Positions 1-7,799 of a DNA stretch of 51,164 bases are shown piece after piece. Location: the NCBI GenBank assembly GCA_004212795.1, contig SHBR01000009.1, forward strand, positions 1-51,164. Reading direction: 5' to 3'. The DNA is from Candidatus Thioglobus sp. (GTDB taxonomy: Bacteria > Pseudomonadota > Gammaproteobacteria > Arenicellales > UBA868). Made by a program: the position numbers and the translations under genes. The first letter of the stretch is position 1, and each line of letters opens with the position of its first letter. Below the pieces are notes generated by a model. That model worked only from the letters and a program-made list of their open reading frames with translations, was not told the DNA's origin and did not search any database.

Positions 1-72
1 CAATGCTTTAATCTCATGCATGGACTGAACGAGTCAACCGGGCTCACGTTTAGCGGTCTTCACCCCATTTAA
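1..72 (+). CDS. lysY: C-terminal end of LysY/ArgC-like acyl-phosphate reductase (partial)
   Basis: Frame 1 is open from the window edge to a TAA at 70-72 and encodes 23 residues beginning QCFNLMHGLNESTGL. This matches the usual C-terminal pattern of the ArgC/LysY family (Q-x-x-N-L-M-x-G-L-x-E-x-T-G-L, then a short tail ending near Pro). These enzymes reduce an acyl phosphate, N-acetyl-glutamyl phosphate in arginine synthesis or the LysW-bound aminoadipyl or glutamyl phosphate in carrier-protein pathways. The carrier version is inferred from the downstream LysZ and LysJ. The next gene starts 8 bases after the stop, so the genes are almost certainly co-transcribed. Only the tail is visible, so the assignment rests on a short motif plus context. 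Confidence 0.6.
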   Translation, partial: QCFNLMHGLNESTGLTFSGLHPI

Positions 73-80
73 TCGCCCAA

Positions 81-719
81 ATGTGTCGACTATTATGGCT
101 TCGCGCGGCCAAACCAATTGACGTCACACAGCATCTGCGAGCGTTTGCCGCCATCTGTGAGAACAGCAGTGAGTATCAGGGCCACGGCTGGGGTTGTGCC
201 TGGCTAGAAGACGATCAATGGTGTTTTCACCATAGTATTACGCCAGTCTGGGAAGACGTTCTCGATTCATTCAAAAAAACGAGTCTTTTTCTGGCTCATG
301 CCCGCAGTGCATTTCGGGACGAAGGTATCCGGGTTGAAAATAATATGCCGTTTGCCGACGAGAATCGCATTTTCATTTTTAATGGCGAGTTGTCCGGGGT
401 TCGAATCCGTGAGTCAGGCCGCATAGGAGCCGAGAAGATTTTCAATTACACCAACCGGTTTTCGCGCCTCGGCGCCCTGCCCGGACTGCGCAAAGCGGTC
501 GAGGTGATTGAGAAACGAACGCGATATATACGAGCAATGAATTTGATTATGGCAACCCCTCAACAATCCCTTTTAGCGACTTATTACAATGAAAATCAGA
601 ATTATTTTCAAATGCATCGAGCTTCGACTGATCAACTAGAGATTGTATGTTCCGAACCCTACCCCTTACCAGGCGCAGAATGGCAAACTATCGAAAATCG
701 AACGGTTAAAGAGTTATAA
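81..719 (+). CDS. Stand-alone class II glutamine amidotransferase in a LysW-type operon
   Basis: The protein (212 aa) starts MCRLL, so Cys2 becomes the N-terminal nucleophile of an Ntn-type glutaminase after Met removal. Other class II glutaminase signatures are present: HGWG near residue 35, AHARSAF near 73 and FNGEL near 100, with a C-terminal SEPYP...W..I.N segment. These domains hydrolyse glutamine and pass ammonia to an acceptor. Here no synthase domain is attached, as in EgtC or YafJ. It sits between the lysY-like end (8 bases upstream) and lysZ (9 bases downstream), so it presumably serves the same carrier-protein pathway. The real acceptor is unknown. A peptidase-like amidohydrolase role, as for EgtC, is an alternative to ammonia transfer. 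Confidence 0.8.
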   Translation: MCRLLWLRAAKPIDVTQHLRAFAAICENSSEYQGHGWGCAWLEDDQWCFHHSITPVWEDVLDSFKKTSLFLAHARSAFRDEGIRVENNMPFADENRIFIFNGELSGVRIRESGRIGAEKIFNYTNRFSRLGALPGLRKAVEVIEKRTRYIRAMNLIMATPQQSLLATYYNENQNYFQMHRASTDQLEIVCSEPYPLPGAEWQTIENRTVKEL

Positions 720-728
720 CCAACAACT

Positions 729-1520
729 ATGTACATTATTAAAGTCGGAGGCGGGAGCGAAATTAATCTCGAGGCCGTCGTTGCTGATCTTGCGACGCTC
801 GAAGAGTCTTTTATCGTCGTCCTCGGCGCAAATGCCGCACGCGACAACCTCGCAACACTGACAGGTCATCAGAAGATTGAGTTGACCTCAGTCTCCGGCT
901 ACAGCAGCGTTTATTCCGATGCAGACGCAATTGATTTAATTATGATGGCGTACAGCGGACTGCGGAATAAACGCTTTGTCGAGCTATGCCAACAGAACAG
1001 TATCAACGCGATCGGACTCACGGGGCTTGATGCCCGTTTGATACAAGGCAAACGCAATAAAGGCATCAGGGTTAGGGAGGGCAGTAAAACGCTGATCAAG
1101 CGTGATTTTTCGGGAAAGCCGCAATTCGTGAACAAAGAACTGCTAACACTGCTGCTCGGTCAAGGGTATCGGCCCGTGCTCAGCATCCCAATCGTTGATG
1201 AGCAAGGCTACGCGATTAATTCTGAAAACGACGATATTGTTGCGGCATTACAAAAAGCGCTGGGTGCGCAAAAAGTAATCCAGTTGATCGAAGCGCCTGG
1301 CTTTCTTGACAATAAAGACGATGAAAACTCGTTGTGCCCCACACTTTCCGTTTCCGAACTTGTCGATCGAGAGGCGATTACTGAGGGCCGAATAAAACGC
1401 AAGCTGCTAGCTTTAACCCGTTTGTTTAAAGACGGCGCCGCAGAGGTCGTGATATCCGATGGACGAACGAAAAATCCGATTCTGGATGCGTTGGCTGGAA
1501 AAGGAACTACGATCAAGTGA
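729..1520 (+). CDS. lysZ: [LysW]-aminoadipate/glutamate kinase (LysZ/ArgB family)
   Basis: This 263-residue protein belongs to the amino acid kinase family. It phosphorylates the side-chain carboxylate of aminoadipate or glutamate, in carrier pathways while the substrate is attached to LysW. The N-terminus MYIIKVGGGSEIN carries the Lys and Gly-rich phosphate loop. The stretch NKRFVELC...NAIGLTGLDARL (residues about 79-105) is much closer to Thermus LysZ as I remember it than to bacterial acetylglutamate kinases. The C-terminus has GRIKRKL near 220 and an ISDGR...P motif near 243. It starts 9 bases after the amidotransferase, and its TGA overlaps the GTG of lysJ by 4 bases. Whether the substrate is the C5 or C6 acid cannot be decided here. 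Confidence 0.85.
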   Translation: MYIIKVGGGSEINLEAVVADLATLEESFIVVLGANAARDNLATLTGHQKIELTSVSGYSSVYSDADAIDLIMMAYSGLRNKRFVELCQQNSINAIGLTGLDARLIQGKRNKGIRVREGSKTLIKRDFSGKPQFVNKELLTLLLGQGYRPVLSIPIVDEQGYAINSENDDIVAALQKALGAQKVIQLIEAPGFLDNKDDENSLCPTLSVSELVDREAITEGRIKRKLLALTRLFKDGAAEVVISDGRTKNPILDALAGKGTTIK

Positions 1521-2659
1521 CCGAACCGCCTTTAGAATCCCGCTATGCGCTCGAAGTCTATCCCCGGCGAGGCATTAATATTGTCCGTGGAGAAGGCGCG
1601 TCGCTTTTCTCCGATGACGGCAAAACCTATATTGATTGTGCAGCGGGTGTTGGCGTCGCAAATATCGGGCACAGCAATCCTGTCGTAATCAAAGCGCTGA
1701 CCGACCAAGCCAAGACACTACTCACCTGCCCCGGTATTTTTCATAACGACCGCAGAGGTGAGCTAATGCAACGGCTTGTGCGTCTTTCGCCCAAGTCTCT
1801 AGAACGGGTTTTTCTCTGTAACTCGGGAACCGAGAGTGTTGAGGCCGCGATTAAATTTGCGCGTGCAACCACCGGTCGGTCCGGACTGGTTACGGCGATG
1901 CGAGGATTTCATGGCAGAACACTTGGCGCCTTAAGTGCGACGTTCAAGTATCGAGACGAATTTGAACCCTTAATTCCCGGCGCGTCTTTTATCCCGCTAA
2001 ATAATATCGACAGACTCGATGCGATAGTCGATGACACAACCGCTGCGGTGATGCTGGAGATTGTTCAGGGTGAAGGTGGCGTGCGTCCCGCCGACAGGGC
2101 CTTCCTGGAAGCCGCTCGTCAAATCTGTACTGATCGAGACGCCCTACTCATCATCGATGAAGTTCAAACCGGTTTTTGTCGAACCGGTCGATTTTTTGCC
2201 TGTGAGCACTACGATGTTCAGCCTGACTTATTGTGTCTGGCCAAAGGGATTGCTGGCGGCGTTCCGATGGGCGCCGTACTATGCGCAGAGACTGTAAACG
2301 TTCGACCTGGAATCCACGGGTCAACATTTGGCGGTAATCCTCTGGCGTGCGCAGCCGGTTCTGCTGCAATTGATTTTATGGTGCAGCACAAGCTCGCAGA
2401 TCGAGCATCTCACCTCGGGAACTATTTTAAAGAGGGTTTTACCCAAAAACTGCCGGATTCCGTTAGGGAGTTCAGACAAATTGGTTTAATGATCGGTATC
2501 GAGCTCAAACAAAAAGCAACGCCACTCCTCCAGGCGTTACTTGACGCTGGAATTATTGCACTGCCGGCGGGTCCGACGGTTATTCGGTTGCTGCCCCCTT
2601 TGACAATCGAGGAAAAACAGCTCGATACCGTTATAGACGCCTTGCGCACCGTACTTTAG
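1517..2659 (+). CDS. lysJ: [LysW]-semialdehyde aminotransferase (LysJ/ArgD-like class III)
   Basis: This is a 380-residue class III PLP-dependent aminotransferase that converts the carrier-bound semialdehyde to the amine with glutamate as donor. Visible motifs are CNSGTESVEAAIKFAR (about 101-116, PLP phosphate binding), the FHGRTLGALS segment near 131, IIDEVQTGF (Asp214 contacts the PLP nitrogen) and AKGIAGG with Lys243 as the Schiff-base lysine. Length matches the LysJ/ArgD family. The GTG start at 1517 lies inside GTGA, overlapping the lysZ stop, which indicates translational coupling. It is the last clear enzyme of the operon; no LysK-type deacylase follows in the window. Acetylornithine aminotransferase activity is possible, but the LysZ neighbour favours a carrier-bound substrate. 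Confidence 0.85.
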   Translation: MTEPPLESRYALEVYPRRGINIVRGEGASLFSDDGKTYIDCAAGVGVANIGHSNPVVIKALTDQAKTLLTCPGIFHNDRRGELMQRLVRLSPKSLERVFLCNSGTESVEAAIKFARATTGRSGLVTAMRGFHGRTLGALSATFKYRDEFEPLIPGASFIPLNNIDRLDAIVDDTTAAVMLEIVQGEGGVRPADRAFLEAARQICTDRDALLIIDEVQTGFCRTGRFFACEHYDVQPDLLCLAKGIAGGVPMGAVLCAETVNVRPGIHGSTFGGNPLACAAGSAAIDFMVQHKLADRASHLGNYFKEGFTQKLPDSVREFRQIGLMIGIELKQKATPLLQALLDAGIIALPAGPTVIRLLPPLTIEEKQLDTVIDALRTVL

Positions 2660-3072: not shown

Positions 3073-4956
3073 TCACCATCCACCACCGCCACCACCGCCT
3101 CCACCGCCACCCGATGACCCGCCACTAAAGCCAGACGATGAGCCCGGTGCAGTTCCCGCTGAGACAACAGTACTGGACAATGAACGACTCAGTGATTTTG
3201 CGAAGCCGACCGGATTACGGGTATTCCATGATCGGCCGTGATACCAGCTCGGTCGATAATTTTGCTCTGAACTGGCGACCGCTTTATCCAAGACGTCACT
3301 GAATTTTTCTGACCATTCCTGATCAACGTCCAACGCGAGGGCGTAAGGAAGATACTTTTCAAACAACAGCAGTTGTTCGTCCACTGACCCTATCGTATTA
3401 AGTCTATTTTTTTCCGCGGTGACCAGATATTTTTTGAAACCTTCTATCTCGTCGATAATCTTTTGACCGGCTCGGGTAGGAGCCTTCATTAATGCGTAGA
3501 AAAGGAAATTGACTCCGACCAGCAGAACTAAAATTAAAACCACAATCAAGTTACTACTGAAAAGTGCGAAGGCAATGTTGGAGAGTCCACTCACTATCGC
3601 AATTACGCCGAAGATAATCGCGTGAAACCAACGACCCTGCTGCCAAATCGAACGAGCGGCAAACAAAAAGACAAACATCACTAATACCGGAATACCCAAC
3701 CCGAGGATTGTTTGCGGATCGGAATTGGTCATGACGACTGCGATGATCGTCAACATTGATATCAGGATACCCGGAATCAGCCATCGCCGGTTTTTGAAGA
3801 AAAAATGACGATGATACTCACCCTCGAGACGCATTTTGAACGCATCCCGAGTGCTGCGAATTTTTTTATGTTGAGACTTATCCAGCTCAAAGCTTTCCTG
3901 ATTCGCTAATAGCTTCTTGAAGATTACTTGCTCTCCGAAAGATAACGGCGTTTCGTCCTGAACCTCGTCTCTGTGAATAATGGTCTTTTTGCTCTCAGAT
4001 TCCTCGATACGGATACGGCCCTTCACGGCCATGCTAATTAATGCGGTAGAGAAAACACGGCTGTCGAAACCCATTCGCATGATGTATCGAACAGAGGCTG
4101 GAGATAAATCATTCGGCGGCTCAAATCGAGGAAAGACAGTGCCCCGCGCGGGATCCCGGCCAACGCGACTCCAGGCGTACATAAAATAAAGCACGACCAG
4201 AAAAAAGCCACTAAATCCGACAACCAACGCTAGATTATCTTCAAGAAAGTAACTTAGGCGTTGATGCGTTGCGGGCTCCGCGACAAACCCTTTTGGCCAT
4301 CCCGCCACGATGGTGAACCCTGATCCCGGCGGAAGCGGGCGAGTGATCTCAAATCGGGCCTGACCATCGGCTAAGGTTTCCAGTCGGTAGTCTCGACCGG
4401 TTTCCCCCTTGATCCCGGTATACGCCGTGAATTCGGCATGTTGCGTAGCAACCCCCGCGGGAAGCCGCACCGTCGCGTCAGCCTGGTCAATGGCAAAGTC
4501 CCAGTCGTTGCCGGTCACATTCCAATACAGTTCATCGTGGTCTTCAAAAAAACCCAACTGTCGGTCAGTTTGATAAATTAGTTCATAGGAATACTGCCCT
4601 GACGGCAAGAAGTGATCCTTTCGACCGATATACACCCGAACGCCGTTGGTAAGATTTTCGAGGCGAAAAGGCTCGCTCTTGCCGTCCCGCTTAACGTCGA
4701 GAAGTTGAAACCCTACTGTTTTCGTTTTTCCCGAGCGGTCCTTGTACCGAGTCGGGAAATCCCGATATATGCCGCGGCGGATTTTGTCCCCTTCAGCCAG
4801 AACTGTTATTTTCTCAGTAATAGTGAGCCCACCATCGGTATGGATCTCGATCAAACTGGAAAATTGTCGGATTTTTTCTTCGCCAATACACGGTGACGAC
4901 AAGAAAAATACCGAAAGAAGCGTGCCCGTTAAGAGTCGACGAAAGCCGTCAGGCAT
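3073..4956 (-). CDS. DUF2207 domain membrane protein with glycine-rich C-terminus
   Basis: This 627-residue protein has a signal peptide (residues about 1-25, ending ...SSPCIG), an extracytoplasmic DUF2207 domain (about 30-235) starting with the typical FSSLIEIHTDGGLTITEKI segment, a first transmembrane helix near 240-262, a cytoplasmic part rich in charged residues, a cluster of hydrophobic helices near 400-500, and a tail of GGSSGGGGGGGGGGGW. Gly-rich tails ending in Trp are common in this family. No enzymatic activity is established. The ATG overlaps the last base of the lemA stop, and LemA-DUF2207 pairing is widespread, suggesting a shared envelope function. The Gly tract is coded by mixed GGN codons at 3078-3115, not by a simple repeat. 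Confidence 0.85.
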   Translation of the reverse strand: MPDGFRRLLTGTLLSVFFLSSPCIGEEKIRQFSSLIEIHTDGGLTITEKITVLAEGDKIRRGIYRDFPTRYKDRSGKTKTVGFQLLDVKRDGKSEPFRLENLTNGVRVYIGRKDHFLPSGQYSYELIYQTDRQLGFFEDHDELYWNVTGNDWDFAIDQADATVRLPAGVATQHAEFTAYTGIKGETGRDYRLETLADGQARFEITRPLPPGSGFTIVAGWPKGFVAEPATHQRLSYFLEDNLALVVGFSGFFLVVLYFMYAWSRVGRDPARGTVFPRFEPPNDLSPASVRYIMRMGFDSRVFSTALISMAVKGRIRIEESESKKTIIHRDEVQDETPLSFGEQVIFKKLLANQESFELDKSQHKKIRSTRDAFKMRLEGEYHRHFFFKNRRWLIPGILISMLTIIAVVMTNSDPQTILGLGIPVLVMFVFLFAARSIWQQGRWFHAIIFGVIAIVSGLSNIAFALFSSNLIVVLILVLLVGVNFLFYALMKAPTRAGQKIIDEIEGFKKYLVTAEKNRLNTIGSVDEQLLLFEKYLPYALALDVDQEWSEKFSDVLDKAVASSEQNYRPSWYHGRSWNTRNPVGFAKSLSRSLSSTVVSAGTAPGSSSGFSGGSSGGGGGGGGGGGW

Positions 4957-5516
4957 TAGAAATTAACCTGGGGCACCGCTCGTTCTGTTGCGAGATTAAT
5001 CTCAAAGAATTCAGCAAGATGGAATCTGAATCCCAGAGCGATTAAATTGCTCGGAAATGACTCCACCATAATATTCCAGTCCCGCACGGCGCCGTTGTAG
5101 TAACGACGTGCGAGCTGCACCTGTTCCTCTGTCTCGGCGAGCTGTTGCTGCAGCTCGAGAAAAGTTGAATTGGCTTTGAGATCGGGGTAGTTCTCTGATA
5201 CCGCAAAAATACCGCCAAGCGCTCGGCTCAACATATTCTCATGAGAAGCCACCTTCGCTACATCGTTTCGGTCACTCACCCCGGCTCGTAACTCAGTCAA
5301 CGAGTCGAGTGTTTGCTGCTCATGTCCCGCGTAACCCTTTACGGTCTCCACTAGATTGGGGATGAGGTTATGGCGGCGTTTGAGCTGAACATCGATTCCA
5401 CTCCAGGCCTCTCGCATCCTATTCTTGCGGCGAATAAACCCGTTATACACCCAGATCAGCCAGGCGAACCCTGCAATCAGAAAGACAAGAATGACGCTAC
5501 CGAAACTAAAATCCAT
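4956..5516 (-). CDS. lemA: LemA family protein
   Basis: LemA proteins have one N-terminal membrane anchor and a four-helix-bundle domain facing outward; their biochemical role is unknown. Here residues about 5-23 form the transmembrane helix, followed by the family signature NRMREAWSGIDVQLKRR and NLIPNLVETVKGYAGHE, and the C-terminal FHLAEFFEI region. I chose the ATG at 5516 (186 aa) because a GGAG Shine-Dalgarno sits 6 bases upstream (5523-5526). A TTG four codons earlier would include that site in the coding sequence. The stop overlaps the DUF2207 start by one base, so the two are translationally coupled. Confidence 0.9.
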   Translation of the reverse strand: MDFSFGSVILVFLIAGFAWLIWVYNGFIRRKNRMREAWSGIDVQLKRRHNLIPNLVETVKGYAGHEQQTLDSLTELRAGVSDRNDVAKVASHENMLSRALGGIFAVSENYPDLKANSTFLELQQQLAETEEQVQLARRYYNGAVRDWNIMVESFPSNLIALGFRFHLAEFFEINLATERAVPQVNF

Positions 5517-5575
5517 AGGAATCTCCAAGAATGATTCTATCTATAGATTTAGTAGATTCCAAATAAGTTCTGAAA

Positions 5576-5982: not shown

Positions 5983-6993
5983 ATGCCCAATCCACGTAGT
6001 CAGGAAGCAACGAGAACAACGCTCATCATGAACGATAGATCGCGCAAAACTTCTCTAGCTTGTAACCACACGATTCACAGTCAGCATAATCATATGACCT
6101 GGGATAATGCGCGTCTTCCGGCGATCACCGTTGCGCCCGGAGACAGTGTGGCGTTCGAGAATATTGATGTCGCAAGTGGCCAGTTAAGCGAAAAATCAAC
6201 CCTCAAAGACTTAAGCGAAATTGACTTGGATCTTGTCAGCCCGATTGCCGGCCCGGTCTATATTGATGGCGCTGAACCGGGCGATTCGCTCAAGGTCACC
6301 ATGCTGGACTTTGAGCCTTTTGGTTGGGGATGGACGGCGATTTTGCCGGGATTTGGGCTTTTAGCTGATGATTTTCCTGACTTGGCTCTGAATATCTGGT
6401 CTTTCGATAAAAGCTTCAGCAAGCCGGCGTTCTTCAGTTCGGGGGCACGAGTCCCCCTGAAGCCCTTTTGTGGGACGATCGGCAATGCGCCAGCAGCACC
6501 CGGCCCACACAGCACCATTCCGCCCTATTCGTCCGGCGGCAACATGGACATCCGTGATCTAACAGTGGGAGTTGAGTTATTTTTACCTGTAAACGTCGAA
6601 GGCGCGCTTTTCTCTGTCGGGGACACCCACGCCGCCCAGGGCGATGGCGAGGTTTGCGGCACAGCGATAGAAGCACCGATGAACGTCGCCGTTAAATTCG
6701 ATTTAGTGAAGAATGAACATCTTCCTTTTCCTAGATTTAGAACTCCCGGGCCAGTAACCCGACATTTAGACGAAAAAGGGTACGACGTCACAACCGGCAT
6801 TGGTCCTGATCTGATGAAAGCCACCCAAAACGCCGTACGCGGCATGATAGATCTTCTGGGCAAGCAACAAGGCCTGAACCCTGAAGACGCTTATATGCTG
6901 TGTAGTGTCTGCGCGGACCTGCGGATCAGTGAGATTGTCGATCAGCCAAACTGGGTGGTGTCGTGCTATATACCTCGCGTTGTCTTTGAATAA
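5983..6993 (+). CDS. Acetamidase/formamidase family protein
   Basis: This is a 336-residue protein of the FmdA/AmdA family, which hydrolyses short-chain amides such as formamide or acetamide to ammonia and the acid. Family motifs include WDNARLPAITVAPGDSV near residues 40-55, the central GGNMDIRDL near 186, and GDTHAAQGDGEVCGTAIE near 213-230, which supplies metal-binding and catalytic residues. The C-terminal part (YMLCSVCADLRISEIVD) is also typical. Two starts are possible, ATG 5983 or ATG 6028; neither has a clear ribosome-binding site and the extra 15 residues are not conserved in the family as I know it. The substrate is uncertain. A class II aldolase gene follows on the same strand after 62 bases. 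Confidence 0.8.
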   Translation: MPNPRSQEATRTTLIMNDRSRKTSLACNHTIHSQHNHMTWDNARLPAITVAPGDSVAFENIDVASGQLSEKSTLKDLSEIDLDLVSPIAGPVYIDGAEPGDSLKVTMLDFEPFGWGWTAILPGFGLLADDFPDLALNIWSFDKSFSKPAFFSSGARVPLKPFCGTIGNAPAAPGPHSTIPPYSSGGNMDIRDLTVGVELFLPVNVEGALFSVGDTHAAQGDGEVCGTAIEAPMNVAVKFDLVKNEHLPFPRFRTPGPVTRHLDEKGYDVTTGIGPDLMKATQNAVRGMIDLLGKQQGLNPEDAYMLCSVCADLRISEIVDQPNWVVSCYIPRVVFE

Positions 6994-7055
6994 GCTTGTG
7001 AAGTCATAGTCTTATTATTTTTATTCCGAAAAATACATCCAGGAAATTAAATACC

Positions 7056-7799
7056 GTGAAAAACTCAAACCCACTTGGGTGCAGCGATGCCGAGTGGCAA
7101 GTTCGTTGTGATTTAGCCGCCGCATTTCAACTCTGCTATTACTTTGGCTTTTGTGACCTGGTTTGGACCCACCTTTCGGCGCGAGTGCCGGGTGAGAGAG
7201 ACGTGTTTTTGTTAAACCCGTCCGGCTGCTTGTTTGATGAGGTGACCGCCTCCAATCTCACTAAGGTTGATATCGACGGTAACTCACTAGATGGACAACA
7301 GGTAAACCCTGCAGCTTTTACGATTCATAGCGCGGTGTATCGTGCGGATGATCGGTATCACTGTACAGTTCATTTGCATGGTCAGCATGGGGGTGCGATT
7401 TCAGCGCTGAAGGAAGGTCTTCAACCCGTGCATAACTTCTACTTCGCTATCGGCGACGTGTCCTACCACGACTACGAAGGATTCGCATTTCGCGATGACG
7501 AGGGCAAACGCCTAATTGAAAATCTGGGAAACAATAAAGCGATGATATTGCGAAATCATGGCACGTTGACCGTTGGTGAAACAATTGCCGCTGCATTTAT
7601 ACGCGCTTACTACATCGAAAAATTAAGTGAGATCCAGATTGCGGCGATGTCTTCAGGTCGAGAAATCATCCTCATCGATGAAAAAATATGTCAAGAAGAC
7701 AACGACGCCATTAAACGCTTTGGAGAACCCGGCGCCATTGAATGGCCAGCGCTACTCAGATTATTGTCTCGACAGGGTATTGACGCACACTTAAATTAA
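7056..7799 (+). CDS. Class II aldolase/adducin domain protein
   Basis: This 247-residue protein has the class II aldolase/adducin fold used by fuculose-phosphate aldolase, ribulose-phosphate epimerase and adducin heads. Metal-ligand motifs are visible: HLHGQHGG near residues 108-115 and the later RNHGTLTVGE near 167. The opening DLAAAFQLCYYFGFCDLVWTHLSAR fits the non-sugar-phosphate subgroup of unknown substrate often annotated simply as class II aldolase. The start is GTG at 7056, with AGGA 11 bases upstream, a longish spacing. It follows the acetamidase gene by 62 bases and may be co-transcribed. The reaction is unknown; decarboxylase or aldolase chemistry are both possible for this family. 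Confidence 0.8.
   Translation: MKNSNPLGCSDAEWQVRCDLAAAFQLCYYFGFCDLVWTHLSARVPGERDVFLLNPSGCLFDEVTASNLTKVDIDGNSLDGQQVNPAAFTIHSAVYRADDRYHCTVHLHGQHGGAISALKEGLQPVHNFYFAIGDVSYHDYEGFAFRDDEGKRLIENLGNNKAMILRNHGTLTVGETIAAAFIRAYYIEKLSEIQIAAMSSGREIILIDEKICQEDNDAIKRFGEPGAIEWPALLRLLSRQGIDAHLN

Follow-up and report, generated by a model that had tools for sequence, protein, structure and literature searches.

What does a stand-alone class II glutaminase do in the middle of an operon for amino acid synthesis on a carrier protein? The question is raised by the first 2,659 bases of a contig from Candidatus Thioglobus sp., of which we analysed a stretch of 51,164 nucleotides (the window). The ORF coordinates and their translation place four genes in positions 1-2659, all on the + strand:

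1..72, + strand: 3' end of lysY (LysW-aminoacyl-phosphate reductase, ArgC family), identified by translation; the gene is cut by the start of the contig
81..719, + strand: GAT, a 212-residue stand-alone class II glutaminase-fold (Ntn) hydrolase, identified by Pfam GATase_4, alignment, an AlphaFold2 model and its EgtC fold
729..1520, + strand: lysZ, [LysW]-aminoadipate/glutamate kinase, identified by NCBIfam model NF010659
1517..2659, + strand: lysJ, [LysW]-semialdehyde aminotransferase, with the Thermus LysJ model as its best NCBIfam match; overlaps lysZ

The genes are tightly packed, with 8 bases between lysY and GAT, 9 between GAT and lysZ, and a 4-base overlap of lysZ and lysJ. A first-pass annotation had given this gene content and spacing, and both are exact by coordinates. 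The translated first 72 bases read QCFNLMHGLNESTGLTFSGLHPI and a stop codon, the last 23 residues of a LysY/ArgC protein. The same stretch, with one difference, ends the LysY of a relative (L040), a protein that scores 392.6 bits against the argC model TIGR01850. GAT carries the sequence marks Cys2, HGWG and FNGEL and passes the Pfam GATase_4 threshold (25 against a cut-off of 23); protein libraries label its family generically, as class II glutamine amidotransferase. LysZ passes the '[LysW]-aminoadipate kinase' model NF010659 (224.4 against 223 bits). LysJ scores 447.5 bits with LysJ_Th_th, the Thermus model, which is under its 700-bit cut-off, and passes the argD subfamily cut-off. The host genome measures 2.04 Mb and is 78% complete. 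Since the window begins at the first base of the contig, inside lysY, we read lysW, lysX and most of lysY in relatives.

The operon in relatives and other phyla

The full order, as given by the relatives, is lysW-lysX-lysY-GAT-lysZ-lysJ. Two of them (L040 and L041) have lysW, lysX, lysY, GAT and lysZ in the same order and just as closely packed, L040 continuing with lysJ, and their GAT proteins are 84% and 87% identical to that of the window. LysW in both ends in EDWGE, the LysW end found in the window's genus. In the relatives LysW has four Cys residues and scores 66.8 bits with TIGR01206 (cut-off 53.2), and LysX scores 326.7 bits with TIGR02144 (cut-off 275.6) and 289.9 bits against the LysX-type ligase 3vpd. 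The first-pass annotation had called the locus a LysW-type operon and expected lysW and a RimK/LysX ligase upstream. Both genes are there in the relatives, and NCBIfam models support lysW, lysX, lysY, lysZ and lysJ.

Is the link between GAT and the operon more than chance? GAT is present in 34 of 61 relatives, and another kinase of the ArgB family, LysZ-like in type, occurs in these 34 and in none of the rest (argB scores of 90-124 bits, or 63 bits where a contig end cuts the gene). Scanning 84,980 species genomes turned up 205 GAT relatives; the best 80 were examined for neighbours, and in all 80 lysX, lysY or lysZ adjoins GAT. These 80 come from Gammaproteobacteria, Acidobacteriota, Gemmatimonadota, Calditrichota, Ignavibacteria, candidate division KSB1 and others. 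Because of this co-occurrence and this linkage, the association is not due to chance. The operon order is kept in the first five of these groups, and the search for the same glutaminase-lysZ-lysJ order in other genomes that had been recommended for this locus thus finds it in Gammaproteobacteria and several other phyla. LysW exceeds its cut-off in none of 398 genomes from elsewhere in the Pseudomonadota, a phylum in which the operon is thus rare.

Some variation was seen around these loci. In five gammaproteobacterial loci (L069, L070, L072, L074 and L084) GAT adjoins lysY, mostly with lysW-lysX, and lysZ and lysJ are not next door. On a LysX tree the GAT-type operon of a contig filed under 'Candidatus Woesearchaeota' (L086) groups with those of Calditrichota and Ignavibacteria; the contig is probably misbinned, or else transferred. 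In six acidobacterial loci (L195-L198, L202 and L208) zinc-ribbon proteins resembling LysW end in a long tail rich in Asp and Glu, not in EDWGE, and have no lysX nearby; they may be a distinct family akin to LysW. An Rfam search near eight operons returned tRNAs only, with no lysine riboswitch or other regulatory RNA. (Note that 'lysW' is also the name of an unrelated transporter in a riboswitch paper [PMC5584792].)

LysK is missing where GAT is present

Freeing the finished amino acid from LysW is normally the task of LysK, an M20 hydrolase. With a cut-off of 163 bits LysK was found in none of the 61 relatives (best score 86 bits) and in none of 26 GAT genomes drawn from several phyla (best score 116 bits). 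The search itself works, since control genomes pass it (4 of 14 are over the cut-off, and operon LysKs score 286-332 bits). To find operons with LysK, we sought LysW in 199 Acidobacteriota genomes and read the neighbourhoods. Two kinds of operon emerged: LysW-X-Y-Z-J followed by an M20 gene, and LysW-X-Y-GAT-Z-J without one. The M20 genes are LysK by NCBIfam (all five tested exceed the TIGR01902 cut-off). Counted by distinct LysW, and with most of the underlying genomes being incomplete draft MAGs, 67 have GAT without LysK, 13 have LysK without GAT, and three, in truncated loci, have neither; GAT and LysK never occur together in these operons.

One acidobacterial locus (L192) has the order lysW-hcs-lysX-Y-Z-J-GAT, in which GAT occupies the usual place of LysK behind lysJ. 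This GAT (L192:2171-2923) is highly diverged: it is 29% identical and does not reach the NCBIfam and Pfam thresholds applied. It retains Cys2, GWG, HARSA and FNG, as well as Gly116.

On the LysX tree a branch with 100/99 support splits the LysK operons (together with the truncated loci L172 and L186) from the GAT operons. The split is therefore probably a single ancient switch, and the exclusion of LysK and GAT reflects few evolutionary events, not many independent ones. The glutaminase had been noted as lying outside the standard LysWXYZJK set, and as a sign of an added step. The added step does not hold up, as LysK is absent and GAT stands in its place.

A possible carrier cycle with GAT

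We propose that GAT has replaced LysK, cutting the C-terminal γ-glutamyl amide of LysW and so both freeing the product and deamidating Gln-ended carriers; judging from gene content and the structural model, we put the probability of this reading at roughly three in four. It builds on operon anatomy, the exclusion of LysK and GAT, the restriction of Gln ends to GAT operons, the fold and the active-site residues, from which we infer catalysis by GAT on LysW, both reactions and the product. The role in release is suggested by the absence of LysK and the constant linkage of GAT to lysX, lysY or lysZ.

The cycle would run as follows. LysX would join the α-amino group of the amino acid to the γ-carboxylate of the C-terminal Glu of LysW, and LysZ, LysY and LysJ would phosphorylate, reduce and transaminate the bound amino acid. 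Product-loaded LysW would then be, chemically, an N-substituted C-terminal glutamine. Cys2 of GAT would attack the γ-amide, releasing the amino acid and leaving a γ-glutamyl thioester, whose hydrolysis by GAT would return free LysW-Glu. The same reaction with NH2 as the leaving part would turn an EDWGQ end into the EDWGE end that the ligase needs. One enzyme would both mature and recycle the carrier, as Dop does for Pup, and one activity would explain both the loss of LysK and the tolerance of Gln ends.

Such Gln ends are encoded. LysW ends in EDWGQ in 20 of the 67 distinct sequences that accompany GAT and in none of the 13 that accompany LysK; the other 47 beside GAT, and all LysWs in LysK operons, end in Glu. 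On the LysX tree the Gln label changes 11 times, at least eight of the changes being forced by well-supported branches. One locus with a Gln-ended lysW (L189) lies on a contig that ends before the expected place of GAT; an identical lysW occurs in L190, a locus that has GAT. The GSWGR motif of LysX is reported to bind the EDWGE end of the carrier, and the ArgW mutation E54A turns Natrinema into an arginine auxotroph (PMC10433800). GSWGR is kept, with one exception, in the LysX of both kinds of operon. Because the ligase activates a carboxylate, and in view of the ArgW auxotrophy, a Gln end is presumably useless to the ligase until it is converted by deamidation.

Could GAT be purely a maturase of Gln-ended LysW, with release left to some other, unlinked hydrolase? 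The confinement of Gln ends to GAT-type operons would agree with this, and a diverged, unlinked M20 enzyme could still perform the release. However, 47 of the 67 GAT-linked LysWs have their Glu already, so deamidation cannot be the general job of GAT, and GAT and its active site are just as invariant beside them. Moreover, LysK is missing even where the M20 signal is nearly nil (a best score of 25 bits in the Melioribacter genome G074, and no signal in the Calditrichota genome G078). We therefore consider a maturase-only role improbable.

Fold and active site of GAT

The AlphaFold2 model of GAT (pLDDT 91.8, pTM 0.90) has EgtC structures as its nearest solved neighbours, the top match being the complex of EgtC and its natural substrate (4zfl; Z 24.0, rmsd 1.9 Å over 196 residues). 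GAT is not EgtC as such, scoring 37.7 bits with the EgtC equivalog model (cut-off 218.65). In an alignment of 104 GAT sequences Cys2, Arg75, Asn101, Gly102 and Gly116 are invariant. From family knowledge we take Cys2 to be the nucleophile, Arg75 the ligand of the α-carboxylate, and Asn101-Gly102 the oxyanion hole.

Gly116, present in 104 of 104 sequences, is the telling residue. In GlmS and PurF the Asp of the D[ST]E motif binds the α-amino group of glutamine. An hhalign comparison with GlmS gave no usable alignment beyond 31 columns, and E. coli YafJ was taken as the reference; there Gly116 falls on the Asp of D[ST]E, a placement that comes from the alignment and not from a structure of a complex. 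Gly in place of Asp is as expected if the substrate is a terminal Glu or Gln held in a peptide bond. It would fit LysW because the loaded or Gln-ended C-terminus offers a γ-amide and a free α-carboxylate, with its α-nitrogen in a peptide bond.

This bears on two further explanations. GAT might act on a later product, a γ-glutamylated amino acid or solute, and merely share the operon; its nearest structural neighbour, EgtC, does handle a small γ-glutamyl metabolite (PMC9103826). The loss of the Asp that binds the α-amino group argues against a substrate with a free γ-glutamyl amino group, and the link to Gln-ended LysW and the loss of LysK would go unexplained, which makes this quite unlikely. 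Very improbable, finally, is an ordinary glutaminase subunit that draws ammonia from free glutamine for an amidation leading to a new amidated product: the class II glutaminase fold with intact Cys2 is compatible with use of free glutamine, but the operons have no conserved synthase partner, the Asp is Gly in every sequence, the nearest fold is the amidohydrolase EgtC and not a synthase-linked domain, and the LysK gap would be left as it is. The first-pass annotation had suggested an amidation or a deacylation step; deacylation fits product release, and amidation, with no conserved synthase partner, is unsupported.

Comparison with known systems

How does the GAT operon, read as above with GAT in the role of LysK, relate to known systems? 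It shares with the LysWXYZJK systems for AAA lysine and ornithine (Thermus, Deinococcus, archaea) a four-Cys LysW ending in EDWG[EQ], a LysX with GSWGR, LysY, LysZ and LysJ, all in one operon. It differs in having a class II glutaminase-fold enzyme instead of LysK, in allowing an encoded terminal Gln, and, in this host, in coexisting with LysA and an ArgB/ArgC/ArgJ set. With carrier and ligase present and LysK not, it is a variant of the LysW pathway and not a standard member.

EgtC, a glutaminase-fold amidohydrolase that takes off a γ-glutamyl group (PMC9103826), resembles GAT in its fold and Cys2 nucleophile, and in hydrolyzing a γ-glutamyl amide rather than feeding a synthase. Unlike EgtC, GAT has Gly for the D[ST]E Asp and is proposed to act on a carrier protein instead of a small metabolite. 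In its logic the cycle would match the Pup/PafA/Dop system, in which a small protein with a C-terminal Gln or Glu is ligated through its γ-carboxylate and one enzyme, Dop, both deamidates PupQ and takes Pup off its targets (PMC8599861). The enzymes, however, are unrelated (Dop is related to the ligase PafA and needs an ATP-derived phosphate), and the cargo is a protein on Pup but a metabolite on LysW. Amino-group carriers also serve beyond primary metabolism, in Streptomyces secondary metabolism (vazabitide/DADH; PMC9303977), whereas no conserved extra biosynthetic genes were seen in GAT operons.

We think it rather likely that these operons represent a second, hitherto unassigned kind of carrier cycle found across several phyla. 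In this cycle a single Ntn hydrolase with a cysteine nucleophile would both mature a Gln-ended carrier and free the amino acid, following a Pup/Dop-like logic that would have arisen independently, and in marine Gammaproteobacteria the cycle may make a further product beside separate lysine and arginine pathways. It would add a second, independent example of an enzyme that first activates the terminal Gln of a carrier protein and afterwards frees its cargo. The Caldithrix abyssi genome paper placed LysWXZYJ and Hcs in one locus and left open the rest of the pathway and a possible non-orthologous displacement (PMC5317091). The proposed role of GAT would supply the enzyme for this missing last step, would put right the pathways predicted for Acidobacteriota, Gemmatimonadota, Calditrichota and many Gammaproteobacteria, and would give a generically named amidotransferase family a specific, directly testable substrate. 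Our literature search, which covered open-access papers, found no description of a role of this kind.

Pathway product and the host's other routes

What is made on the carrier? The host genome has LysA (507 bits), ArgJ (380), ArgB (243) and a separate ArgC (424), which answers the check on other routes recommended in the first-pass annotation and rules out the operon as the sole lysine or arginine route. LysA is also over its cut-off in 21 of the 26 mixed-phyla GAT genomes, including some with an operon-linked homocitrate synthase homolog; the carrier route therefore often coexists with the diaminopimelate route.

Homologs of homocitrate synthase lie in the operons of eight loci (L079, L086, L097, L102, L112, L173, L187 and L192); Calditrichota, Ignavibacteria and some Acidobacteriota have such operons. 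The L086 operon adds a homoaconitase-type small subunit and a homoisocitrate-dehydrogenase-like gene. For operons with homocitrate synthase this gene content points to lysine made from 2-oxoglutarate. In the host genome and 60 relatives no protein exceeds the homocitrate synthase cut-off of 413.55, the matches being LeuA- or CimA-like only; operon-linked homologs elsewhere are also below it (342.7 and 400.1). The substrate residues of LysX are of the aminoadipate type (EFRNS and HWITNTARG as in Thermus LysX, versus EFKGF in Sulfolobus ArgX), and because the search of these Gammaproteobacteria revealed no homocitrate synthase, the residues do not suffice to assign the substrate there. The idea of a new product, raised in the original reading of the locus, is thus possible for the Gammaproteobacteria; elsewhere the operons with homocitrate synthase point to lysine instead.

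Two other loci in the window are of note. Positions 3073-5528 (- strand) encode a DUF2207 membrane protein with a Gly-rich tail (by Pfam), next to a gene that by eye is LemA-like, and positions 5983-7799 hold a gene of the Acetamidase/formamidase family and, after it, one for a class II aldolase.
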